From Acidimicrobiaceae bacterium (GTDB taxonomy: Bacteria; Actinomycetota; Acidimicrobiia; Acidimicrobiales; RAAP-2): a stretch of 64,000 nt of DNA. Location of the stretch: the NCBI GenBank assembly GCA_003170315.1, contig PNAH01000010.1:101543-165542 (forward strand), read 5' to 3'. Both the position numbers and the translations under genes were made by a program. Each line of letters opens with the position of its first letter. Positions within the stretch are counted from its first letter, which is position 1. Under the pieces are notes generated by a model. It ran no database searches. It saw only the letters and a list, made by a program, of their open reading frames with translations, and had not been told where the DNA came from. This document shows, piece by piece, positions 24,014 through 37,006 of the stretch.

Positions 24014-24190
24014 ATAAATCCAGCCGAAGCCGAGTCACGACAAAATACGGCCCTGAGATTCTGCGTTCTCTAACGGATTGCTTCAACTCTGCTTTGGTGA
24101 TACTGCCTCAGCGAGCAGTACCCCAATCATTGAGATAACGGGAAATTTTCGGCGATTGCTTCTCCAGATTTGCAGTCATGACCTGTTTCA

Positions 24191-24224
24191 CTCAAGCCGC
24201 CAGTGCTTGGTAGCAGATCTGTTG
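24191..24224 (+). repeat. 34-bp imperfect direct repeat, copy 2
   Basis: Second copy of the element at 23640-23673, about 550 bases away in the same orientation. It lies about 110 bases before the tRNA-like fragment at 24337, so it may mark an older recombination event near the same insertion hotspot. Confidence 0.7.
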
Positions 24225-24336
24225 CTTCGGTTCGCCGATCTCAACCCACACTTCGAACTGCTCACTCAGTTGCTCATGGATCAACTTTGGAGGGAGTTAA
24301 TCCTCCCAAGAATCGAAGGTTTACGGGAAAAATCGA

Positions 24337-24373
24337 TGGGTCGTACAGGACTTGAACCTGTGACCCCTTGCGT
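24337..24373 (-). repeat. tRNA 3'-end fragment, candidate distal attachment site
   Basis: Read on the minus strand this is the 3' half of a tRNA: the 3' arm of the anticodon stem, the variable region, a complete T-arm (ACAGG-TTCAAGT-CCTGT), the acceptor strand ACGACCC and discriminator A. No D-arm or 5' acceptor strand precedes it, so it is not a tRNA gene. It differs from the same part of tRNA-Val at three positions, two of them a compensating T-stem pair. It begins one base after the stop codon of the aldehyde dehydrogenase gene. Confidence 0.8.
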
Positions 24374-24374
24374 A

Positions 24375-25760
24375 TTAATCCTTGGTTGTACTCGGAGTAT
24401 GGATCAACTTCTTGTTCACGAACTCTTCGATGCCGTAGGGACCGAGTTCGCGACCCACGCCGGATCGCTTCGTGCCACCGAATGGCAACTCAGCGCCGCC
24501 GCCCTCCGGTGTGTTGATCCACACCATGCCCGTGTCGAGGCGGTCGGCCACGTCGAGCGCCAACTTCTCGTTGGCACTGTAGACACTCGCGCCGAGGCCG
24601 TATGGCGTGTCGTTCGCTAGGGTCACGGCTTCGTCGGCGTTAGCGACACGGTAAACCACGGCGACTGGTCCAAAAAGTTCCTCACGGAACGCGCGCATCG
24701 CGGGCACTACGTCAGTAAGCACACTCGGTTCGAAGAACGCACCCGGTCCGCTCACTCGACTTCCGCCGGTGCGCACGGTCGCGCCCTTGCTAACGGCGTC
24801 ATCAACTTGCTCTTGCAAGTTCCTCGCGGCCTGCTCGGATGACAGTGGGCCGTACGAGGTGTCCGGGTGAGTCGGGTCGCCAGTCTTGCGGGACGCCATC
24901 GCGTTGGTGAACTGTTCGACGAAATCGTCGTAGATGGCGTCGGCCACGATAAAGCGCTTTGATGCGTTACAGGCCTGACCGCCATTCTCCATGCGCGCGC
25001 CGACCGCCTCGCCAACCACTTTTGCTAGATCGTCAGTGTCGAGGACAATGAACGGATCTGACCCACCGAGCTCAAGGACGACCTTCTTCAAGTTCTTTCC
25101 CGCAATGGCCGCGACGGCGGTTCCTGCGCGTTCACTTCCGGTCACGGACACGCCACAAATACGAGGGTCGGCAATAATCTCGGCGACCTGTTCGTTCGTG
25201 GCGAAAATATTGATATACACATCGGCCGGAAGTCCAGCGTCATGGAAGATCTTTTCCATCGCGAGCGCCGACTCGGGACACTGTGGCGCGTGCTTGAGCA
25301 AGATGGTATTGCCAATCATGATGTTGGGTGCGGCGAACCGAGCAACCTGGTAGTACGGGTAGTTCCACGGCATGATGCCCAGTAGCGCGCCGACTGGAGC
25401 TTTGCGAACCCACGCGGTGCCGCCCGTGTTGGATGCGAGGGGTGCGTCGGCCAGCAGGGTCGGCCCCTGGTCGGCGTAGTACCGGTAAATATCGACCACA
25501 AAACTAATTTCGCCCAGTGCTTCGGCGGTCGTCTTACCCATTTCGCGCGTGATGACTGCGGCAAGCGTGTCGGCCCGATCACGATAGAGATCGGCCACTC
25601 GATGCAATATCTTCGCGCGTTCTGTCTTCGCCGTGGTACGCCATGATTGGTAGCTCTCGTGAACGCGAGCGAGGACGTCGGCAATCGTGGCGTCTGTCGC
25701 AGTCGGGAATTCACTCAGGGTCTGGCCGGTGGCGGGATTAACGACTTGGTACAGGCTCAT
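24375..25760 (-). CDS. NAD(P)-dependent aldehyde dehydrogenase, succinate-semialdehyde-type
   Basis: A 461-residue aldehyde dehydrogenase of the GabD-like (SSADH) branch. The catalytic Glu230 is in VVLELGGSDP, the nucleophile Cys264 in NGGQACNASKR, the cofactor region is SVTGSERAG, and there is a C-terminal PFGGTKRSGVGRELG. It oxidises an aldehyde such as succinate semialdehyde to the acid. GAGGAA precedes the ATG. It lies at the island's left edge, its stop adjoining the tRNA fragment. A 27-bp palindrome and a candidate promoter are upstream, so it probably has its own transcript. Confidence 0.88.
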   Translation of the reverse strand: MSLYQVVNPATGQTLSEFPTATDATIADVLARVHESYQSWRTTAKTERAKILHRVADLYRDRADTLAAVITREMGKTTAEALGEISFVVDIYRYYADQGPTLLADAPLASNTGGTAWVRKAPVGALLGIMPWNYPYYQVARFAAPNIMIGNTILLKHAPQCPESALAMEKIFHDAGLPADVYINIFATNEQVAEIIADPRICGVSVTGSERAGTAVAAIAGKNLKKVVLELGGSDPFIVLDTDDLAKVVGEAVGARMENGGQACNASKRFIVADAIYDDFVEQFTNAMASRKTGDPTHPDTSYGPLSSEQAARNLQEQVDDAVSKGATVRTGGSRVSGPGAFFEPSVLTDVVPAMRAFREELFGPVAVVYRVANADEAVTLANDTPYGLGASVYSANEKLALDVADRLDTGMVWINTPEGGGAELPFGGTKRSGVGRELGPYGIEEFVNKKLIHTPSTTKD

Positions 25761-25819
25761 AGTGAAATTCCTCTTTCAATTGTGGCAGGGGGGCCGAGAA
25801 CCCTCATGCCCGGCCGACG

Positions 25820-25848
25820 GTATAACAATCGATCTACTTACTTCTTAA
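25820..25848 (-). promoter_or_regulatory. Candidate promoter of the aldehyde dehydrogenase gene
   Basis: On the minus strand TTAAGA (25843-25848) and TTATAC (25820-25825) are separated by 17 bases, a reasonable housekeeping-sigma promoter, about 60 bases upstream of the start codon. The -35 hexamer abuts the 27-bp palindrome. Confidence 0.45.
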
Positions 25849-25874
25849 GTCCGTCGACGTCACGTCCACGGACT
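25848..25874. promoter_or_regulatory. 27-bp near-perfect palindrome, candidate operator
   Basis: Two 13-base arms (AGTCCGTCGACGT and its partner) with one mismatch flank a single central base. The palindrome directly adjoins the candidate -35 box of the aldehyde dehydrogenase gene. Size and symmetry suit a dimeric regulator. It has no loop and no T-run, so a terminator role is less likely. Confidence 0.55.
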
Positions 25875-26303
25875 CAGGGGCACGGTGGCGCCGTTCCCCA
25901 GTTCAGTGTAATGACGTCAGTCGAGCCGGGTTTCTTAGTCATGAAAGTCCTCAGAGTAGGGTCTGCCCCCGAATTAGTTGACTCCTTGACCTGACCTCAA
26001 GATTTCGCGTCCCAAGTTCGCGTGGAGTTCCCGCGACTAAGAAAAGTGAAGAACCTGCCGTTAGAAACACCAGTTGATTAGCGATTATCCTCGCTCCAGT
26101 TAGAAAGGACCTCCGCCCTTTCAAGATGGCGTGAGTAATTCGAACCCCATTTAGTGGGTCCCTTAGCCTCTACCAATGTTCGACGCGCGCCGAGATTGAC
26201 TTCGACTTCGTCATACCGGACAAGGTTTTTGGTCGCCGAAATCACTTTTGACCCTCAACGGAATTATCGGCTCACCAGCCAATATTCTCACGAATGTTCC
26301 GAA
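25875..26303. other. Intergenic remainder upstream of the palindrome
   Basis: About 430 bases between the aldehyde dehydrogenase promoter region and the stop of the ThDP enzyme gene. Open frames are short and lack family features. It may hold the 3' UTR of the upstream operon; I see no clear hairpin terminator. Confidence 0.4.
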
Positions 26304-27980
26304 CTAATTCGCCGCCGGCGGGCGCACCGTACCAACATAGGGCACGGTCATCGGGCCGATTGCATTGAGATCAACCTCGACCACGCAAGGCTCCCGATCA
26401 GCAAGCGCTCCCTTGACGGCCGACACGTAGTCCCCGATTGATTCGACGCGAGCGGCACGAATCCCGAACGCGGTTGCAAGGCCGCAGAAATCTGGCCGTC
26501 CAAGGTCCACGCCGATCCGGCCGTCCTCGTGCCCATACTGGCGATCCTGGATGTTGCGAATAACTCCGTAGCCGCCGTCGACAAAGACGATCACCACGAT
26601 CGGAAGCTGCTCCTGCGCGACCGTCGCGAGTTCAGATGCCGCAAGCAGGAAACCGCCATCTCCGGCGAGAAGCACGACTGGCGCCTCCGGCGACCCGACG
26701 GCGGCACCAAGTGCTTGCGGCAGACCGAGCCCGATCGCGAAACTGTTCGACTGGATCGAGGTACGAGGCCGACGCACCGGCAATAGCCGGTTGCCCCACG
26801 TGTAAGCCGAGATGGTCGAGTCCTTCACAACGACGGTACCGGGATGGAGGCATGGGGCCAATCCGTCGAGAAGACCTACTTGCGGCCCGAGAGTGCCCCG
26901 CAGCCACTTCCGGCTGGAGTCTTTGACGGCGACGACCCGCTCAAGCCAACCGGCCTCAGCGAGAACCTCCGGAGCGCCGATCCCGTCGAGCGCGTCTAGC
27001 AACGCCTTTGTCGATACCTTCGCGTCGGCCACGATCGCGGCTTCAACGGGATAGTTCCGACCGGGCACGGCGGGATCGATATCGAGATGCACAAGACGCG
27101 CGGGCAGCTCCATCTTCCAATTCTCAGTGTGCGGCCCCTGAAATCGAGTCCCTATCGCTACCAGGAGGTCCGCCTCTCGGCACAGGGCCCGTACTTCGGG
27201 GTCCCAGGAGAGGTTGCCGATGCACATTGGATCGTCTTCGGGAAGGACCCCTCGCCCGTTTGGGCTCGTCAGCAGTCCGGCACCGAGTCGGCGCACCAGC
27301 ATCACAACTTCGTCCACAGCTCCGGCAGCGACGACGCCGCCGCCCGCCCACACGATGGGTCTCCGGGAACCCGCGATAATCTCGACCGCGTGAGCCACTT
27401 CGGCCTCATTAGGCCCAACCGCTGCCTTCGAAACGGCTGGGACCAGGCCCGGCTCGGTGGAGCAAGGCGCGTACTGGAGGTCGATTGGGATCTCCAGCGA
27501 CACCGGACCGCGTCGGCATGCCATTGCCTCTGACGCAGCGGTCGTGACTAGCTCACCGATGCTATTGGTGGACGTGGCGCAAAAATGGGCCTTAGACAAC
27601 GACGCCAACATGCCGAGCTGGTCGGGTACTTCATGGATGAAGCCTCGGCCCTGATCCAGGAATCGGCTATCGATCTGGCCAGTTAGATGCAAGACCGGCG
27701 ACGACGAGACGTACGCCTCGAGTTGTCCGCCCATCGCATTCGCTGCTCCCGGACCGGTGGACGTAATGAACACACCGAGGCGCCCTGTGGTTCGTGCGTA
27801 CCCGTCGGCCGCTCCGCTGGCACCTTGCTCATGTCTAACGGTGATCGCGCGAATCTTACCGTCGCGTCTAATCGCGTCGTAGATGGGCAGGTTGTGGACA
27901 CTCGGGATGCCGAAGACAACGTCGACGCCCGCCCGCTTGAGCCCATCCACGACCGCATCACCACCGGTTCGATCAGTCAT
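26304..27980 (-). CDS. Thiamine-diphosphate-dependent enzyme (acetolactate synthase / 2-oxoacid decarboxylase superfamily)
   Basis: A 558-residue ThDP enzyme with the N-terminal pyrimidine-binding domain (catalytic Glu51 in VRHEQGASGAADGYAR), a middle domain and the C-terminal diphosphate domain. The last has the ThDP motif beginning LLAGDGGFLL and ending VFVDGGYGVI, where the usual Asn pair is Asp-Gly. The ATG at 27980 has GGAGGC just upstream. In relatives these enzymes make acetolactate, decarboxylate benzoylformate-type 2-oxo acids or act on oxalyl-CoA. No regulatory subunit gene adjoins, so biosynthetic acetolactate synthase is unlikely. With an aminotransferase and aldehyde dehydrogenase nearby, 2-oxoacid decarboxylation is the favoured guess. 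Confidence 0.82.
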   Translation of the reverse strand: MTDRTGGDAVVDGLKRAGVDVVFGIPSVHNLPIYDAIRRDGKIRAITVRHEQGASGAADGYARTTGRLGVFITSTGPGAANAMGGQLEAYVSSSPVLHLTGQIDSRFLDQGRGFIHEVPDQLGMLASLSKAHFCATSTNSIGELVTTAASEAMACRRGPVSLEIPIDLQYAPCSTEPGLVPAVSKAAVGPNEAEVAHAVEIIAGSRRPIVWAGGGVVAAGAVDEVVMLVRRLGAGLLTSPNGRGVLPEDDPMCIGNLSWDPEVRALCREADLLVAIGTRFQGPHTENWKMELPARLVHLDIDPAVPGRNYPVEAAIVADAKVSTKALLDALDGIGAPEVLAEAGWLERVVAVKDSSRKWLRGTLGPQVGLLDGLAPCLHPGTVVVKDSTISAYTWGNRLLPVRRPRTSIQSNSFAIGLGLPQALGAAVGSPEAPVVLLAGDGGFLLAASELATVAQEQLPIVVIVFVDGGYGVIRNIQDRQYGHEDGRIGVDLGRPDFCGLATAFGIRAARVESIGDYVSAVKGALADREPCVVEVDLNAIGPMTVPYVGTVRPPAAN

Positions 27981-28109
27981 CTTGCCTCCATCCTCCGATC
28001 CAATGTACGGAGGCCCCCGGACGGCGGTAGGCCTCGTAAGTTTCGTGGCCTTGAACGGGTAGTTCTTCCGACTTCCCAATTCGTGTTAAGTCCGTGCGTC
28101 TGACTTGAA

Positions 28110-28451
28110 TCACGCCGCGCCGCTCGTAGGCTGTTGACAATCGAGCCGCCACTTTGCACGGTGGAGAACCTGAATGTCGGTGAACTCGAAGAATCCCCAC
28201 GGCCCGATTTCAACCCCAAGTCCGCTCCACTTGGTACCACCAAACGACTGATGAGGCGCCAGGGCAAGGTGGGCGTTCACCCAAGCGGTGCCAAAGTGAG
28301 CCTTGGCAAAGGCGTCCATCGCAGCGTCGAGTTCCGAGCGCGAGCACTCAGGCGCCTCCGCATAAACATCGCCCGACGCAGGATTGACCACACCGAAACT
28401 CCCGCTCGTGGTGAGTGCATCACCGCCAACCGTCATCGTGAACTGAGACAT
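28110..28451 (-). pseudogene. Aldehyde dehydrogenase gene with large in-frame internal deletion
   Basis: The 113-codon frame starts like an aldehyde dehydrogenase (SFGVVNPASGDVYAEAPE, SELDAAMDAF). After about residue 53 it jumps straight to the C-terminal end of the family (GTAWVNAHLALAP, SFGGTKWSGLGVEIGPWG). The central 370-390 residues, including the cofactor fold and the catalytic Cys and Glu, are missing. The ribosome site GGGAGG and ATG are intact, so a small non-catalytic protein could still be made. It lies between a RidA-type gene and the ThDP enzyme gene on the same strand. Confidence 0.88.
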
Positions 28452-28540
28452 GACACCACTTCCTCCCGATCGGCTGGCGAAGATCGCCCGCCGCAGTCAT
28501 TGACGACACGCGTGCATCCCTGCTCAAGCGTAAGAACTCT

Positions 28541-28942
28541 CTATGACACCTCGAGAGCCGCGGTCACATCTATTTCAACCTCCACGCCCACCCTGAATCC
28601 GATCCCGGGCAAAGTCGTTCGCGCCGGCCGATGATCCCCGAACATCTCGGCATAGGTGGCGTCCATCTCCGCGAAAGCAGACGGATCACGCAAGTAAACC
28701 ATGGCCCGAAGTACCTGTGTGAGGTCACTGCCGACGCCACTGAGGACGATCTCGAGGTTTTGAATCGCTCTGCGCGTCTGCGCCGCGACCCCGGCAGCCA
28801 TCTCACCGCTCACCGGGTCAATGCCGAGTTGCCCCGAGCAATAGACAATCCCACGATGCACCGTCGCGTGAACGTACGCGCCTTTCGGTATTGGCAAACC
28901 CGCTACTAAAACCCGCTCAACTGACCCGATGCTCTCGTTCAT
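28541..28942 (-). CDS. RidA/YjgF/L-PSP family protein
   Basis: A 133-residue RidA-family protein, usually a trimeric deaminase of reactive 2-iminoacids released by PLP enzymes. Typical parts are YVHATVHRGIVYCSGQLGIDP near the N-terminus, AQTRRAIQNLEIVL, LTQVLRAMVYL and a C-terminal PARTTLPGIGFRVGVEVEIDVTA. The Arg of PART is the substrate-binding Arg in characterised members. GAGGAGG lies before the ATG at 28942. Placed after a class V aminotransferase gene, an imine-clearing or specific hydrolase role fits. Confidence 0.85.
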   Translation of the reverse strand: MNESIGSVERVLVAGLPIPKGAYVHATVHRGIVYCSGQLGIDPVSGEMAAGVAAQTRRAIQNLEIVLSGVGSDLTQVLRAMVYLRDPSAFAEMDATYAEMFGDHRPARTTLPGIGFRVGVEVEIDVTAALEVS

Positions 28943-29144
28943 ATTTCCTCCTCTCGAAGTGCCCCCATGTCCCCACCAAAAGCCCTTTACCTCAATCAAT
29001 ACGACCTTCATGTTTCGCCGTTGCAACCTCATTCGCGCTTCGACCGCACTATTCGAAATCCTCATTCGACTTCCACCTGCCCTCTGGTCAGACCTCTTCG
29101 TAACTAACGAGCCGCCTGCCAGGCGCCGCCAAGGGGCCTTCTCG

Positions 29145-30311
29145 TCAAGGGGTTGGGAGTGCTGCGACAAGGCGTTCTATATCGGTCCAGTCGTTGAACA
29201 GATGACAAGAGATTCGCAGACGTCCATCGCGCACGGCACAAGAGACGTTTTTTTCGGCGAGCGCCGCGCGCACACGCTCCGCATCCCCGTCCGGAACGTC
29301 GGCTGAGACAATTCCCGACCGCTCACCATCACGAGTCGAGCTCGACACCGGGTAGCCTTTTTCTTCTAGCGCTTCAGCCAATCCCGCACTAACCTCGAGA
29401 ACCCAGTCGTTGATGAGTTGGACGCCGGCGCCAGTGAAGAGATCAATGCTCGCCCCGAGCCCGTACATACCCGCCAAATTCGGAACGCTATTTTCATAGC
29501 GCCGTGCATCCGAGGCGTATCTTAAGTTGTACTGCAACTGCTTCTCGAGAAATGGGGCGTCTTCGATGTTCTTCCACCCCGGGGCGGAGACCTCGAGCAC
29601 CTCTCGCAGCTTCGGAGCTACATAGCAAAAGCCGATCCCGTACCCTGAACAGAGACTCTTATAGCCATGCGCCGCCACCAAATCAGCTCCCAGGGAGCCG
29701 ACATCGACAGTGAGCGCCCCGACAGCCTGCACCACGTCGGCTAATAGCAATGAACCATTCGAGTGGCAGAGTTTGGAGATCTCCTCGATCGGAGCTCTGA
29801 ATCCGTGAAAGCAGTTTACGAGGCTTATACAGACAACACGAGTACGGTCCGACAGTAAGGCTTCGACATCTTCGACATCGAAGCGATGGCGACCCAGGTC
29901 TTCGATAAATCGAACGATTACCCCCCGCTTCTCGAGCGCAAGCCAAGGGTAGACACCGGCCGGAAACTCTTGGTCATAGACCACGACTTCGTCCCCGACA
30001 TTCCAGTCGAGCCCGAGCGACACGAGGCTGAGGCCTTCAACGGTACTGTGCAGAAGTGCCACATCACGCGGATCGCACCCTATAAGGGTGCCCACCTTGC
30101 TTCGAACTTCCGCCGCCCCTTCCCACCAATGCCCTACTCCTTTCGCACCAGCGCCCATCATCATCCCCTCGAGGAATTCCTTCTGGGCATTCACGTTCGT
30201 CACCGGCAACGGTCCATACGTGGCGGTATTGAACCAGGTCTTATTCTCAGTAACCGGAAACTCCTCCTGGCGCAGCCTGTGCATCGCTTGATTCTGATGT
30301 TTGGAACTCAT
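29145..30311 (-). CDS. Class V aminotransferase family PLP enzyme
   Basis: A 388-residue fold-type I PLP protein like cysteine-desulfurase/isopenicillin-N-epimerase relatives. It has FNTATYGPLP at the N-terminus, the PLP-ring Asp192 in LLLADVVQAVG and the Schiff-base Lys218 in VAAHGYKSLCSGYG. It lacks the mobile Cys loop needed for desulfurase action as far as I can see, so an epimerase, lyase or aminotransferase role is more likely. AAGGAGG precedes the ATG. The start region is part of a 68-bp tandem duplication that places a mini-ORF directly upstream, overlapping this start by four bases. Confidence 0.82.
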   Translation of the reverse strand: MSSKHQNQAMHRLRQEEFPVTENKTWFNTATYGPLPVTNVNAQKEFLEGMMMGAGAKGVGHWWEGAAEVRSKVGTLIGCDPRDVALLHSTVEGLSLVSLGLDWNVGDEVVVYDQEFPAGVYPWLALEKRGVIVRFIEDLGRHRFDVEDVEALLSDRTRVVCISLVNCFHGFRAPIEEISKLCHSNGSLLLADVVQAVGALTVDVGSLGADLVAAHGYKSLCSGYGIGFCYVAPKLREVLEVSAPGWKNIEDAPFLEKQLQYNLRYASDARRYENSVPNLAGMYGLGASIDLFTGAGVQLINDWVLEVSAGLAEALEEKGYPVSSSTRDGERSGIVSADVPDGDAERVRAALAEKNVSCAVRDGRLRISCHLFNDWTDIERLVAALPTP

Positions 30312-30406
30312 GGATCATTCCTCCTTGATCTGGACCGACGCAGCCTTTGCATCGATCGATTCTGATTTTTGGAACTCATGGATTCTTCCGCCTTAATCGG
30401 GACCCA
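30271..30406 (-). repeat. 68-bp imperfect tandem duplication covering the aminotransferase start
   Basis: Segments 30271-30338 and 30339-30406 align over the full 68 bases with about 12 mismatches by eye. Each unit carries a purine-rich ribosome site, an ATG and the first codons of the aminotransferase (MSSK-NQN then M-RLR). The downstream unit (30271-30338) is the real gene start; the upstream one encodes a mini-ORF. Confidence 0.85.
30308..30379 (-). CDS. 23-codon mini-ORF from duplicated gene start, possible leader peptide
   Basis: The upstream copy of the 68-bp duplication gives a 23-residue frame (MSSKNQN ... RRSRSRRND P) with its own ribosome site. It ends in a TGA overlapping the aminotransferase ATG (ATGA). 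It cannot be an enzyme. It could couple translation of the aminotransferase or simply be a duplication by-product. Whether it is translated is unknown. Confidence 0.4.
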   Translation of the reverse strand: MSSKNQNRSMQRLRRSRSRRNDP

Positions 30407-30461
30407 TCACGCTTCACCTGTCGGTGTGACGGCCCTCCGATGCGAGCACGCACCGCCCCAG

Positions 30462-31658
30462 TCATTTCGTCGAGCCACTACTCCACCTTCGAATCGCAAA
30501 GCGCTCCACCCGCTCCGGCACCACAGGAAAACCATTTCCAGGGCGTGACGGAACGCTGATACAGCCGTCCAGTTCAATGTCGAACGTCGGTTCTACGAGA
30601 TCCTCCTCATAGAAGATGCGAGCCGGTGACATATCAGCGTGCATCGTGAATCCCGGAAGCGAAGCGAGGGCAAGGTTGAAGCCCCGGCCGATACCCGTCT
30701 CCAACGTTCCGCCACACCACGCGGGAACTTCGAGATCAACGCAGAGATCGTGAACCGCAAAACATTCCAGGAGTCCACCGAGTCTCGGGGGCTTAATGTT
30801 AACGATGCGACCTGCCCCTAAGTGCAAGGCCGTTCTCGTCGTGTTGTAACCAGTGGCACTTTCATCAAGGCAGATAGGCGTTTGCAAAGTGGACTGGAGC
30901 GTTGACAACTCCATGAGCGCGTCGCCCGGCAGCGGCTGCTCAATCATGAGCAAGTCGAGGTCATCGAGCTCTTTCCACGGGCCCGATTCGACCGTGTAAC
31001 CGCAGTTTGCGTCGACCGATAGCGGAGTCCCCGGGAAAGCATTCTTGACCGCCGAGACGACGGAGACATCCCAGCCAGGGGCAATTTTCAACTTGATCCG
31101 GCTGAATCCTTCCTGCAACCGAAGAGCGATCTCATCAAGCAGAAGTTCGGTGTTGTCATAAATGGAGAAACTCTCTCCGACAGGAATCCTCGCTCGGACT
31201 CCGCCCCACATCAAGGCGAGCGGCACACCCATCTTTTCCGAGGCAATCGCCCACGACGCGGACTCGGCGGCATGTTTAGCGTAGTGCTGACCGAGAAGGT
31301 CCTCCCACGTTTTGGCGAGTTGACTCGGCCCACTAAATGTTCGAGCCATAACTCCGGGCAGGATCAGGTCCGCCAAGACCGACCAGGTACCTTCAGGAGT
31401 ATCAGTACCGTAAACGGGCCGCTCCGGTGCCGGTGCCTCACCCCATCCCACCGTTCCGTCATCGTCTTCCAGCCTGACCAGGATCGCTCGCTTCATGCCA
31501 GTTGACGCGCCATAAGCTGATTTGAAGGTCCGACACATTGGCAACGACAGCATGAAGAGATCTGCTCGGCGAAGTCGTATCGGAGTTTCAATTGCTTTCG
31601 CCCGCTCAAACGAGCCAGGACTCATGGGGTCCCCACCGGTGTTCGCTGAAGTTTGCAT
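30462..31658 (-). CDS. Enolase-superfamily enzyme, MLE / OSBS / N-acylamino acid racemase subgroup
   Basis: A 398-residue enolase-superfamily protein. Catalytic Lys189 and Lys191 are in IKLKIAPGWD, metal ligands Asp216 (VDANCGYT), Glu240 (MIEQPLP) and Asp265 (LDESATG), and the opposing Lys289 is in NIKPPRLGG. Two Lys, one on each side of the barrel, mark the muconate-lactonising / o-succinylbenzoate synthase / N-succinylamino acid racemase group. The His-Asp dyad of mandelate racemase is absent. No menaquinone genes adjoin, so racemase or epimerase action on an amino-acid derivative is favoured. It lies eight bases after the ligase gene. Confidence 0.83.
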   Translation of the reverse strand: MQTSANTGGDPMSPGSFERAKAIETPIRLRRADLFMLSLPMCRTFKSAYGASTGMKRAILVRLEDDDGTVGWGEAPAPERPVYGTDTPEGTWSVLADLILPGVMARTFSGPSQLAKTWEDLLGQHYAKHAAESASWAIASEKMGVPLALMWGGVRARIPVGESFSIYDNTELLLDEIALRLQEGFSRIKLKIAPGWDVSVVSAVKNAFPGTPLSVDANCGYTVESGPWKELDDLDLLMIEQPLPGDALMELSTLQSTLQTPICLDESATGYNTTRTALHLGAGRIVNIKPPRLGGLLECFAVHDLCVDLEVPAWCGGTLETGIGRGFNLALASLPGFTMHADMSPARIFYEEDLVEPTFDIELDGCISVPSRPGNGFPVVPERVERFAIRRWSSGSTK

Positions 31659-31666
31659 CTTGCCCC

Positions 31667-33043
31667 CTATAGCATTTCTCGATATTCAGCAATCTCCCAG
31701 TCACTCACGTGCCCGAGATAGCGTTGCCAATCAAAGCGCAGCAACTCTGTATAGGTCGTTGAGAAAACGACTCCCAGTGCCGCCCCCAGCTCACCGTCGC
31801 TTGCAAGAGCGTCCAATGCCTCGACAAGGCTCATCGGAAGACGATCAAAGCGGACGTCGTTGAAGAGGTTCCCGTCGGTTGGATCACCGGGATCAAGACC
31901 TCTCCTGACGCCGTCAACTCCCGCTGCAACCATGGCCGCCGCGAGAAGGTAGGGGTTGGCATCCGAACTCCCCAACCGATTCTCAATCCTGGTGTTTCTG
32001 CCATCGGGCAGGGCCCGCGCCAGAGCTGTTCGATTCTCGACACCCCAAGCGATCCGAACGGGTGCCCAGGTGCCCGGTCGGTATCTCTTGTAGGCCGTCA
32101 CCGTTGGAGCAGCTAATGCAGTCATGCCTCGCGAGTGAAGCAATTGCCCGGCGATGTAGCTTCTGGCAATCTCTGATAGACCGTGCGGCGCTGAGGGGTC
32201 GAAGAAGAGATTCTCTCCGTCAGGGCTCAAGGCCGATTGGTGCACGTGATAGCCACTCGGCGGCGTCTCGTCGCGATTGGTCGGCTTCGCCATAAAGGTC
32301 GCCCTTAGGCCCAGTGAAGACGCAACCTCCTTGATCGCAATCTTGAGCGCGACGACGTGGTCAATGGCCCCGACACCGGATCGCGGCTCGAGATTCACTT
32401 CGAATTGCCCGGCACCGTGCTCGCTGAAGATCTCGTACAGCGGTATCCCCATCTTGCTAGCCGTGTCCTGAAGCGCATCGACGAACTCTTGGGCCTGCCC
32501 TAGCGCGTGGATGGAGAACCAGGACTGCATGCCATGGATCGTGTTGAATCCATCATTGCTCGGCTCAGGCTGAAAGACGTAGAACTCAAGTTCGTTGCCA
32601 AATACGGGCTCCAAGCCAATAGAGCGGGCATCGTCCAACACTCGACGAAGCACAGACCTCGGCGTTGCCACCACGCTGCCCGCCTGGTCGTAGAGATCGG
32701 TAAGCACGTGTGCCGTATCCGGCGTCCAGGGAAGTGCGGTAAAGGTCGATGGGTCTAAGATAAGGACACCATTCCTATATCCGATGTCTTTACCGTATTC
32801 GGTCTCATTCGGCGAGTGCGTCTCCCAGAGATTGCACGCCAGAAGCGGAATCGCGAACGGGTGCCCTTCGGAGAGAGCGCGCTCGAATCGTTCGACGGGA
32901 ATCACTTTTCCGCGTGGCACGCCGTACATGTCGGTCACGACAAGACGTACCTTACGGATGCCCTCATCACTGATTCGCTGAAGCACTCGGGCCCTTAGCT
33001 TCGCCGTATCCTCCTCGACGAATGAAGCCTTCTCAGTGTTCAT
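31667..33043 (-). CDS. Glutamine-synthetase-family ligase, likely gamma-glutamyl-amine synthetase (PuuA/GlnT-like)
   Basis: A 458-residue member of the glutamine synthetase superfamily. It has RLVVTDMYGVPRGKVIPV in the N-terminal domain, metal-ligand Glu residues in FGNELEFYVF and QFEVNLEP, the His region GYHVHQSAL, and the C-terminal NTRIENRLGSSDANPYL. The sequence departs from housekeeping GlnA, and it lies among amine/aldehyde genes with its own GntR regulator. A ligase joining glutamate to an amine (as PuuA, GlnT or GmaS) is therefore likely. GGAG precedes the ATG. It shares an operon with the racemase-like gene. Confidence 0.85.
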   Translation of the reverse strand: MNTEKASFVEEDTAKLRARVLQRISDEGIRKVRLVVTDMYGVPRGKVIPVERFERALSEGHPFAIPLLACNLWETHSPNETEYGKDIGYRNGVLILDPSTFTALPWTPDTAHVLTDLYDQAGSVVATPRSVLRRVLDDARSIGLEPVFGNELEFYVFQPEPSNDGFNTIHGMQSWFSIHALGQAQEFVDALQDTASKMGIPLYEIFSEHGAGQFEVNLEPRSGVGAIDHVVALKIAIKEVASSLGLRATFMAKPTNRDETPPSGYHVHQSALSPDGENLFFDPSAPHGLSEIARSYIAGQLLHSRGMTALAAPTVTAYKRYRPGTWAPVRIAWGVENRTALARALPDGRNTRIENRLGSSDANPYLLAAAMVAAGVDGVRRGLDPGDPTDGNLFNDVRFDRLPMSLVEALDALASDGELGAALGVVFSTTYTELLRFDWQRYLGHVSDWEIAEYREML

Positions 33044-33254
33044 ATCGCTCCAATACTTAACGCGTCACGTACCTCGCCGACGCTCAAATGGCTAAAGCGA
33101 GAGCCGCACACGACACGGCCGGACGGACCACTGACTTCGCTCATCGCGCACGCCCACCAAGGACCCCTGAAATTAGCAATCTGGCCCGCGTCGCGCTGGC
33201 TGCGCGTCGCCGCCTTGGCCCTCGCGAAACTGAGCACGGTTTGAGTGGCAAGAG

Positions 33255-34013
33255 TCAACTCGGGTCCGATGGCACTTCCTCAACGCCCTGTGCAGCGAGG
33301 GCGGCACTCACAGCGCGCGCGGTAGCATCAATGTGAACCCGCATCACCGCGCTGGCTCCTGGAGCGTCACGCGCATCGAGGCAGTCAATGAGTTGCCCAT
33401 GGCACTCGACTGATTGTCTTCTACGGTCACTTGTAGATTTGAGTAGATCCAACCCTGGCGCCAACTTGACGCGAATGTCTTGTACGGCGTCGATTAGATA
33501 GGCGTTTCGACTTGCTTTCGCAATGATCTGATGGAGTGCCACATCAATCGCACGAAACCGGTCACGTTCCACCCTTGGCTCGCGCAGCTCCTCCTCGTGC
33601 AGCAGGCGGAGCCGAGAAAGTTCGCTTTCACTTATTCTTTCGGCGGCCAACGCAGCGACAAGCGGTTCCACCGCCGTTCGGTATTCGAACAACTGCCGCA
33701 GATCGGCGGCTCTGCCGGCAAGCCGATCCATGACAACATCGAGTTCTGGGTCCAAAACGAATGCGCCTCCATTGCGCCCCCTTTTCATCCGAATGTATTT
33801 GTGATCCTCAAGCCAGCGCAGCCCCTCGCGCACAGCCATACGATTCACGCCAAGTTGGGTGCAGAGTTCCATTTCGGTGGGCAGGCGCTCCCCGGGCATA
33901 AACTCATGGAGTCTGATGGCCGTCAGGATGAGATCAGCGACTTGCTCTCCCAGCCGATAACGCAGCGGTTGCACAGCGGCGAGGTGGCTCAAGTCAGGCA
34001 TCCTGTCGCTCAC
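33255..34013 (-). CDS. GntR-family regulator, FadR/FCD subfamily
   Basis: A 252-residue regulator. The N-terminal winged helix (about 20-85: LPTEMELCTQLGVNRMAVREGLRWLEDHKYIR) is followed by a helical FCD ligand domain with metal-site-like His residues (ALHQIIA, ECHGQLIDCL, VHIDATA). The GTG at 34013 has GGAAAGG eight bases upstream; an ATG at 34001 is possible. It lies between the class II amidotransferase and the ligase genes, so it probably controls the surrounding catabolic operon. The ligand would be an organic acid of that pathway. Confidence 0.87.
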   Translation of the reverse strand: MSDRMPDLSHLAAVQPLRYRLGEQVADLILTAIRLHEFMPGERLPTEMELCTQLGVNRMAVREGLRWLEDHKYIRMKRGRNGGAFVLDPELDVVMDRLAGRAADLRQLFEYRTAVEPLVAALAAERISESELSRLRLLHEEELREPRVERDRFRAIDVALHQIIAKASRNAYLIDAVQDIRVKLAPGLDLLKSTSDRRRQSVECHGQLIDCLDARDAPGASAVMRVHIDATARAVSAALAAQGVEEVPSDPS

Positions 34014-34053
34014 GAAAGGAGCCTTTCCAAAACCACTGCGACGCGACGACCGC

Positions 34054-34728
34054 TCATAACGTTGCGCGCCCCTCAACAACCCTTCTTTCGGTCGAATCCA
34101 GAAAGACCAGGTCGAAAAGTGAGTTATCTGACGAATGTAATTGGGTAGCAGCCATCACTACATCACTCATTCGAAAGGTCCAAAGCCGATTCCCTTCATT
34201 ACTGCTATAGAGCGCGATGGCTCCCTCGTTGTCGATAGCCGCGAGATTCGCCGGTCCGCCAAGTTTTGAGTGGGCAATCTGCATCGATTCATCCATGGGA
34301 ACCCCCGCGGCGACGAGGTCCTCGAACATCAAGAATCCAACCTCGCTGTCGGCTGCTCCAACACATCGGTCGGCATACGCTGGTCGATACTCCATCTCAT
34401 TAATAAATCGCCCATTGTGAACGAAAGCCATGGACTGTTCTTCGTCCAGGAACGGCTGCGTATCCTCGATTTGAACCGTCGACAACTTACTCGGTCGTCG
34501 AAAATGTATTAGGAAATGTGTTGACTCCACGTCGTTCAGAAAGTTGGCATCTTTCGCATCATCGGCTAGTCGGCCCACGTTTCTGTAACGTCGCACCTTG
34601 CCCGAATCGAGCCACGCGACGCCCCAACCAAATTTGGCCGAGCCGTAATACTCCATTTTACGACCCAGTTCCTTGAATTCCAAGAAACGTCTTGGCGTTT
34701 TTGATCTCACGACCAAGATCTCACACAT
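34054..34728 (-). CDS. Class II glutamine amidotransferase-like hydrolase (YafJ/EgtC-like)
   Basis: A 224-residue Ntn-type amidohydrolase. The nucleophile is Cys2 (MCEILVVRS). THFLIHFRRPS supplies the Arg-containing region and FVHNGRFINE the oxyanion Asn/Gly element; GAADSEVGF also fits the glutaminase fold. There is no synthase domain, so it should hydrolyse a gamma-glutamyl bond, as EgtC does. Two genes away from a GS-like ligase and 24 bases from an aldehyde dehydrogenase, it may remove the glutamyl group after amine oxidation. GGAAAGG precedes the ATG. Confidence 0.85.
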   Translation of the reverse strand: MCEILVVRSKTPRRFLEFKELGRKMEYYGSAKFGWGVAWLDSGKVRRYRNVGRLADDAKDANFLNDVESTHFLIHFRRPSKLSTVQIEDTQPFLDEEQSMAFVHNGRFINEMEYRPAYADRCVGAADSEVGFLMFEDLVAAGVPMDESMQIAHSKLGGPANLAAIDNEGAIALYSSNEGNRLWTFRMSDVVMAATQLHSSDNSLFDLVFLDSTERRVVEGRATL

Positions 34729-34751
34729 GGCGGGCCTTTCCTTCCTTATAG

Positions 34752-36227
34752 CTACTGATCACTGACATAGACGTTCTTTATCTCCGTATAGTCCCAAAGC
34801 CCATCGAGACCTTGCTCCTTGCCGAGTCCGCTTCGTCGGTAACCGCCAAACGGAGCTTGAATGTACGAACTCGAGTCGGAGTTGATGCTCAAAAGTCCGG
34901 TACGAATCCCGCGTGCCACACGAAGCGCTCGACCAATATCGCGCGTCCACAGCGAGCCACTGAGACCGTACTGAGTCCCATTGGCCAAAGCAATCGCTTC
35001 TTCCTCGTCATCGAAAGGAAGAATGGTGGCTACCGGTCCGAATATTTCCTCTGTTGCAATCTCGCTATCGGGAGTCGCGCCGGTAACAATGGTCGGCGCT
35101 ATCGCATTCCCTGCCTCGAGGCCTGCGGCGCTCACCACGTTACCTCCGCACACAAGCTCGGCGCCGCCGGCCCTCGAACGATCAAGGAAACCGAGAACGC
35201 GATCGCGCTGATCCGAGGAGATCAGACTTCCTAGAGTCATGGTCGGATCCATCGGATCGCCTTGGCGAACTTTTGACGCATTCTTGGCCAGCAATTCAAC
35301 GAACTGTTCCACGACCGGACGCTCGACGATCATGCGACTTCGGGAGCAACAATCCTGACCCGAATTCGCAAAAACCGCGCCCATTGCCGATTTAGCGACA
35401 TCGGCCAGTGGCGCGTCGGCGAACACGACATTCGGAGATTTCCCGCCGAGTTCGAGACTCACGCGCTTTATCCCCGCAGCGGCTCTAGTCAAAATGTCGA
35501 CACCGGTGGTGGTGCTGCCAGTGAAACTAATCTTCGCAACGTCAACGTGCGCCACCAATTGTTGACCAAGTTCTCGAGTCGATCCCGTGAGGACGTTAAT
35601 CACTCCGGCGGGTACACCGGCTTCTTCGCATATTCGCGCAAGCCTCAAAGTCGTGAGCGGGGTAGGTGGTGCCGGCTTCAGAACGACGGAGTTGCCCGCC
35701 GCGAGCGCGGGCGCGGCCTTCTTTGCAGCAATAGCAATTGGTCCGTTCCAGGGCATGATGAGGGCACAAACTCCGATTGGCTCTCGTAATGTGAAGTCGA
35801 GTCCGCTTGCGTTGACAGGAATGGTCTGGCCGGTAAGGTGATTCACCGCCGATCCGTAAAACCGAAAATACCTCGCAGCCGCTCGAACCTCGGCATGGCA
35901 ATCCACGATGGGCTTTCCAGAACAGAGCGATTCTAGATGCGCAAGTTCTTCCTCATTCGATTCGATAGCCGCCGCGACTGCAACGAGAATCTCGCCACGT
36001 TGTGGCGGCGGGAGCTTCCGCCAACGACCCGTTTCAAACGTCCTTCGGGCAACCTGAACCGCCAAGGAAACATCGGCCTCGCACGCCTCGGCTACTTGAG
36101 CAACAATTGCGCCGTTCGCAGGATTTCGAACGATATAGGTAGCTCTACTGGCGGAATCCAAGTCGGCACCGTCGATCCGCAATTGAGCTTCGATCACATC
36201 GCGCACTTGCTTAGTAGAACTGGTCAT
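34752..36227 (-). CDS. NAD-dependent aldehyde dehydrogenase (betaine/gamma-glutamyl-aminoaldehyde type)
   Basis: A 491-residue aldehyde dehydrogenase. MPWNGPIA and SFTGSTTTG lie in the cofactor fold, catalytic Glu259 is in SLELGGKSPN, the nucleophile is Cys293 in NSGQDCCSRSR, and the C-terminal motif is PFGGYRRSGLGKEQG. It resembles the betaine-aldehyde/PuuC-like branch. The ATG at 36227 overlaps the SDR stop by four bases, so the two are coupled, and the amidohydrolase gene follows after 23 bases. A role oxidising an aldehyde made from an amine or alcohol is likely. Confidence 0.9.
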   Translation of the reverse strand: MTSSTKQVRDVIEAQLRIDGADLDSASRATYIVRNPANGAIVAQVAEACEADVSLAVQVARRTFETGRWRKLPPPQRGEILVAVAAAIESNEEELAHLESLCSGKPIVDCHAEVRAAARYFRFYGSAVNHLTGQTIPVNASGLDFTLREPIGVCALIMPWNGPIAIAAKKAAPALAAGNSVVLKPAPPTPLTTLRLARICEEAGVPAGVINVLTGSTRELGQQLVAHVDVAKISFTGSTTTGVDILTRAAAGIKRVSLELGGKSPNVVFADAPLADVAKSAMGAVFANSGQDCCSRSRMIVERPVVEQFVELLAKNASKVRQGDPMDPTMTLGSLISSDQRDRVLGFLDRSRAGGAELVCGGNVVSAAGLEAGNAIAPTIVTGATPDSEIATEEIFGPVATILPFDDEEEAIALANGTQYGLSGSLWTRDIGRALRVARGIRTGLLSINSDSSSYIQAPFGGYRRSGLGKEQGLDGLWDYTEIKNVYVSDQ

Positions 36228-37006
36228 ACAGCGGTATACCCTCCGTCCACGACAAAGAATGCACCCGTGATCCAACTGGAGTCATCGGAGGCAAGGAACA
36301 GCGCCATCTTCGCGATGTCTTCTGGCTGACCCCATCGACCAAGCGGCACGTGGCCCTCAACTGCTCGAACGTATTCGTCCGTGAACGGTCCAGCTAATGG
36401 TGTCATGATCGCGCCGGGAAAGATACAGTTACACCGGATCTTTTCAGGAGCGTGGAACACTGCGAGGGTCCGAGTCATCGCAGCCACGCCACCTTTGGCC
36501 GCGGTATAAGCGTCCGACGCACCGGACCCGACGCGCAGAGCAGCGATGCTCGAGACGTTGATGATCACTCCGCCGCCGACCTTCCGCATTTCTGGAATCG
36601 CATATTTGCAGCCCAAATATGTTCCCTTTAAGTTCACATCGATGGTCCGATCCCAGATGTTCTCTTCAAGGAGTGGCGATGGCGCGTCGGTGAACCCCGG
36701 TCTGTAGTTCCCTTGGGCTGAAAACCAGAGACCAGCGTTATTGTAGAGAACATCGAGTCGACCAAATTTCTCTGAGGCCAATTGAACTGCGGCTTGCACT
36801 TGAGTCGCGTCCGACACGTCACACAACGCGAACGCAGCCGCCGCTCCCGACTTGATGAGTTCGTTTGTAACTTCTTTTCCCGTTTCGATATTCACGTCCG
36901 CAACAACAACGGAAGCCCCTTCCGACGCGAACAACCGAGCGGCAGCCGCTCCCTGGCCACTGCCGGCGCCGGTAATTAGTGCCACTTGATTCTCAAGTTT
37001 TGCCAT
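36224..37006 (-). CDS. Short-chain dehydrogenase/reductase (classical SDR)
   Basis: A 260-residue SDR with cofactor motif TGAGSGQGAAAA near 14-25, YNNAGL, and catalytic residues in NVSSIAA, then DAYTAAKGG with Tyr and Lys. The C-terminus is ITGAFFVVDGGYTAV. The usual GxG motif reads GAGSGQG. GGAAAGG precedes the ATG. It is the first gene of the operon, overlapping the aldehyde dehydrogenase; alcohol-to-aldehyde oxidation feeding the next enzyme is a natural guess. Confidence 0.86.
   Translation of the reverse strand: MAKLENQVALITGAGSGQGAAAARLFASEGASVVVADVNIETGKEVTNELIKSGAAAAFALCDVSDATQVQAAVQLASEKFGRLDVLYNNAGLWFSAQGNYRPGFTDAPSPLLEENIWDRTIDVNLKGTYLGCKYAIPEMRKVGGGVIINVSSIAALRVGSGASDAYTAAKGGVAAMTRTLAVFHAPEKIRCNCIFPGAIMTPLAGPFTDEYVRAVEGHVPLGRWGQPEDIAKMALFLASDDSSWITGAFFVVDGGYTAV

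Follow-up and report, generated by a model that had tools for sequence, protein, structure and literature searches.

A 113-codon remnant of an aldehyde dehydrogenase gene, probably a young pseudogene left by one in-frame deletion, in an Acidimicrobiaceae genome

A study of the extinction of Salmonella pseudogenes reports that most of them have a single inactivating mutation, occur in individual genomes only and diverge with little or no acceleration (PMC2916853). The gene remnant described here, which lies in a 64,000-nucleotide stretch of an Acidimicrobiaceae contig (hereafter the window), likewise points to one event, occurs in one genome among those searched and shows little sign of accelerated divergence. 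It differs from the Salmonella cases in that its inactivating deletion is in-frame and its reading frame is still open. The protein family to which it compares is the aldehyde dehydrogenase (ALDH) superfamily, PF00171, for which 8yen is the nearest solved relative. Both ends of the family are homologous in the remnant, including the C-terminal strand and the PFGG-K-SG region, in which PFGG reads SFGG, whereas 367 residues, all catalytic residues included, are missing. A search of the literature on truncated ALDHs found nothing comparable.

The remnant, recognised from its translation and by Pfam, is a minus-strand open reading frame (28110..28451) that starts with an ATG at 28451-28449, runs for 113 codons with no internal stop and ends with a stop codon at 28110. 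The sequence-only reading of this DNA had given exactly these coordinates and had left out the strand. It had also held that frame, start and ribosome site survive, as indeed they do: the 113 codons are open from the ATG, and a ribosome-binding-site-like GGGAGGAAG (28459..28467, minus strand), picked out from the sequence, lies 7 nt upstream. Alignment with intact relatives divides the frame into an N-terminal block, residues 1-53 (28293..28451, minus strand), and a C-terminal block, residues 54-100, GTAWVN...HRAK (28152..28292, minus strand), and places the deletion junction at, or a few nucleotides from, 28292/28293. Sequence and alignment define the rest as a 13-codon tail, WRLDCQQPTSGAA, with the stop (28110..28151, minus strand). 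Of the roughly 53 N-terminal and 50 C-terminal residues originally proposed, the first count stands and the second becomes 47 homologous residues plus the 13-residue tail. The tail is roughly as long as the extension seen in 481-residue family members, with no recognisable similarity or convincing homology; it could be a diverged extension of that type or new sequence that followed loss of a stop codon.

The Pfam Aldedh profile (PF00171) matches the remnant in two stretches with E=2.2e-9, the best aligning residues 45-94 with profile positions 409-459. Searches of single genomes gave E values of 7e-21 to 2e-23 for the C block and 2e-14 to 5e-18 for the N block, so its homology to ALDHs is beyond chance. 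With a significant Pfam match and relatives at E values down to 2e-23, the remnant is a member of PF00171 by descent. In whole-genome searches residues 1-53 and approximately 42-101 match separately, about 1.2 kb apart within single open frames of the relatives. These full-length genes, for which the earlier reading had proposed to look, were found in the same genus (G017, G429, G366 and G008), the same family (G696, G736 and G741) and the same order; of the 396 other genomes of the order that were sampled, 24 in total carry one. They encode proteins of 467-481 amino acids that belong to one actinobacterial ALDH subfamily, and identity to the full-length members is about 45-63% over residues 1-53 and 54-78% over residues 54-100. 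At 113 amino acids against 467-481, the remnant is a shortened homologue of the kind by which bacterial pseudogenes are recognised.

We aligned the relatives by motif to compare the spacing of the two blocks. Of 23 distinct intact relatives, 19 show a distance of 367 residues from the end of the N block to GTAWVN; three of the four exceptions reflect a misplaced anchor in our script and the fourth has 366. A gap of 367 residues corresponds to a loss of 1,101 nt, a whole number of codons, and because the spacing in the relatives is almost always the same, one in-frame deletion accounts for the open reading frame. An alternative origin, in which two different ALDH genes each contributed one end, could be read from the difference in best relatives, which are L036 and L069 for the N block and L029 and L033 for the C block. 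However, best matches of such short blocks are weakly ordered, both blocks show the invariant columns of one and the same subfamily, and the genome holds no other member of that subfamily, making such a chimaera extremely improbable. Repeats at the breakpoints within the window are at chance level, and there is no exact repeat at the junction. Breakpoint-equivalent sites in 20 relatives, a proxy since none of these is close or syntenic, share a longest word of 4.85 nt on average, compared to 4.65 nt for random site pairs.

The stretch that is missing, residues 54-420, contains the equivalents of four residues of L036, an intact relative: N144, E240, C274 and E371, which have established catalytic and cofactor roles in the ALDH family. 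The original claim that the catalytic core is gone is therefore borne out, and the loss of the catalytic residues, read from the sequence, is certain. The catalytic cysteine, the general-base glutamate in LELGG and the asparagine in PWNFP that mark a PF00171 enzyme are all absent from the remnant. As it has lost these residues along with most of the NAD(P) site, the remnant cannot be an aldehyde dehydrogenase.

We considered whether the organism carries a full-length gene from which 1.1 kb was lost in assembly. The genome is a draft of 36 contigs, 94.5% complete and 3.4% contaminated, in which such an error might occur. However, the junction offers no exact repeat at which an assembler would skip, and a precise in-frame join at the homologous register is unlikely to come from mis-joining. 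Nor is the core stranded on another contig: searching the genome with the missing core returned members of other ALDH families alone, at 29-41% identity, and no displaced core. We thus regard an assembly artefact as quite unlikely. A search of the same genome with the remnant itself found nothing above 42% identity besides the remnant and hence no intact copy of the subfamily. One weak match, on contig C31, was considered as a further ALDH fragment and rejected, as there is no ALDH-like open reading frame there.

The sequence that remains is conserved nearly as in a working gene. The remnant matches 29 of the 31 columns that are invariant in 22 intact relatives and deviates at Q40E and P69S only; when the intact relatives were left out in turn, each deviated at 0-1 of these columns, against two for the remnant. 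In an IQ-TREE analysis of the amino-acid sequences the terminal branch of the remnant is the second longest, and its root-to-tip distance ranks fourth of 24, inside the range of the intact members. Differences at the three codon positions (0.30, 0.20 and 0.58) resemble those of intact relatives with low third-position GC. When neutral drift was simulated from the present sequence, 0.1 substitutions per site changed about six invariant columns on average and left a stop-free frame in only 45% of runs. Since drift of this extent would alter about six of the invariant columns, the time without constraint must have been short, if there was any, and with 29 of 31 columns kept and no stop codon acquired the deletion is probably recent.

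The same conservation would be expected if the fused ends had been retained as a small protein with a structural role, for example by associating with a different ALDH subunit via the C-terminal strand. The intact frame and ribosome site, the position among open genes and the 29 preserved columns are all consistent with this idea. However, any young deletion would show equal conservation, and the drift test alone does not decide between a young pseudogene and a retained protein. P69S disrupts the otherwise invariant proline of the PFGG motif, the genome has no intact partner of the subfamily with which to pair, and overlapping searches of 100, 397, 395 and 397 genomes revealed no other short fused form. 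Structure prediction argues in the same direction, the fold of the putative small protein being modelled with low confidence. AlphaFold gave the remnant a mean pLDDT of 55 and a pTM of 0.39, from a shallow alignment of 21 sequences (20 homologues), and the C-terminal block fell largely below 50; intact L036, run as a control with nearly the same alignment, reached 85 and 0.85. Residues 429-449 of the L036 monomer, part of the C-terminal block, are also of low confidence, so the poor score of the remnant there is uninformative, and the informative change is in the N block, where pLDDT drops from 86-98 in L036 to 59-76. What tips the balance to a pseudogene is that no second short form, no partner within the subfamily and no confidently predicted fold was found. 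A retained small protein, for which there is no positive support, is accordingly quite unlikely, in keeping with the lower rank that the sequence-only reading had given it, and very unlikely is the related proposal that the fused ends act as a catalytically dead mini-protein on another ALDH or on another protein of the gene run.

Collectively, the constant spacing in intact relatives, the in-frame loss of 1,101 nt, the near-normal conservation of the remainder, the failure to find an intact copy or another short form and the poorly predicted fold favor a recent deletion, as had been suggested from the sequence. We put the probability that the remnant is a young pseudogene, derived from an ALDH gene by one internal in-frame deletion, at roughly 0.86. 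According to this model, an ALDH gene of about 480 codons lost codons 54-420 in this lineage through a single deletion of about 1,101 nt, which would have happened recently and in the organism itself. The remnant would probably still be translated from its own ribosome site, yielding a peptide that presumably does not fold and is rapidly degraded, and the other ALDHs that are kept in the gene run and the genome would have made the loss tolerable. Against a pseudogene, the surviving frame, start and ribosome site are equally expected of a retained protein; a deletion leaves the frame intact by chance in about one of three cases. If our reading is correct, the remnant represents gene loss within a catabolic-looking gene run, caught early. 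Automatic annotation would label it a short aldehyde dehydrogenase family protein even though no enzyme is possible. The remnant calls for care when genes are annotated and pathways reconstructed here, and otherwise has little general significance.

The congener G008 harbors a second decayed relic of this ALDH subfamily, on contig 21 (L078:4712-4927), in addition to its full-length member. The relic is a C-terminal frame of 71 amino acids in which family sequence is lost after GGENGP. Loss of subfamily genes is therefore not unique to the genome studied here.

The remnant lies in a minus-strand gene run that extends from about 36275 down to 24375 and in which every other member is an open frame of normal length. 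In order, the run encodes an intact betaine/aminobutyraldehyde-dehydrogenase-like ALDH (34752..36275), a class II glutamine amidotransferase-like protein, a GntR/FCD regulator, a glutamine-synthetase-like protein of the type III/gamma-glutamylamine-synthetase-like kind, an enolase-superfamily (MenC-like) protein, a class V aminotransferase, a RidA/YjgF family protein (28541..28942, 89 nt before the remnant), the remnant, a thiamine-pyrophosphate enzyme (PRK07064-like; 26304..27980, 129 nt after the remnant) and an intact succinate-semialdehyde-dehydrogenase-like ALDH (24375..25760), all on the minus strand. Orientation and spacing suggest that the run may be an operon; a promoter and terminator scan gave nothing above chance. 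The presence of glutamine-synthetase-like, amidotransferase-like, RidA, aminotransferase and ALDH genes suggests a pathway for amine or amino-acid catabolism.

The run from 24375 to 36275 is not conserved in relatives. Among 98 other congeners, none had a match to the thiamine-pyrophosphate enzyme at E<=1e-80, and none of the 60 congeners searched with the class V aminotransferase had one at 1e-50. When 26300-31700 was compared as DNA with 99 genomes of the genus, the matches outside the genome itself were all short and weak. The pathway appears to have been acquired or kept in this genome only. Full-length relatives of the remnant lie in unrelated neighborhoods, none of them syntenic and only that of G008 with a RidA gene, a distant one, nearby; where loci share the enolase-like or glutamine-synthetase-like genes, no member of the remnant's subfamily adjoins them. 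As no syntenic intact copy was found, that the deletion took place at this locus is an inference. Two further features of the region were observed. A plus-strand open reading frame of 180 amino acids (24078-24620) overlaps the end of the ALDH gene at 24375 and contains MGRTGLEPVTPCV, a peptide known from spurious open reading frames; ARAGORN predicted no tRNA in this interval. Finally, a 68-bp unit is present in two tandem copies (86% matching) at 30271-30404, spanning the start of the aminotransferase gene.
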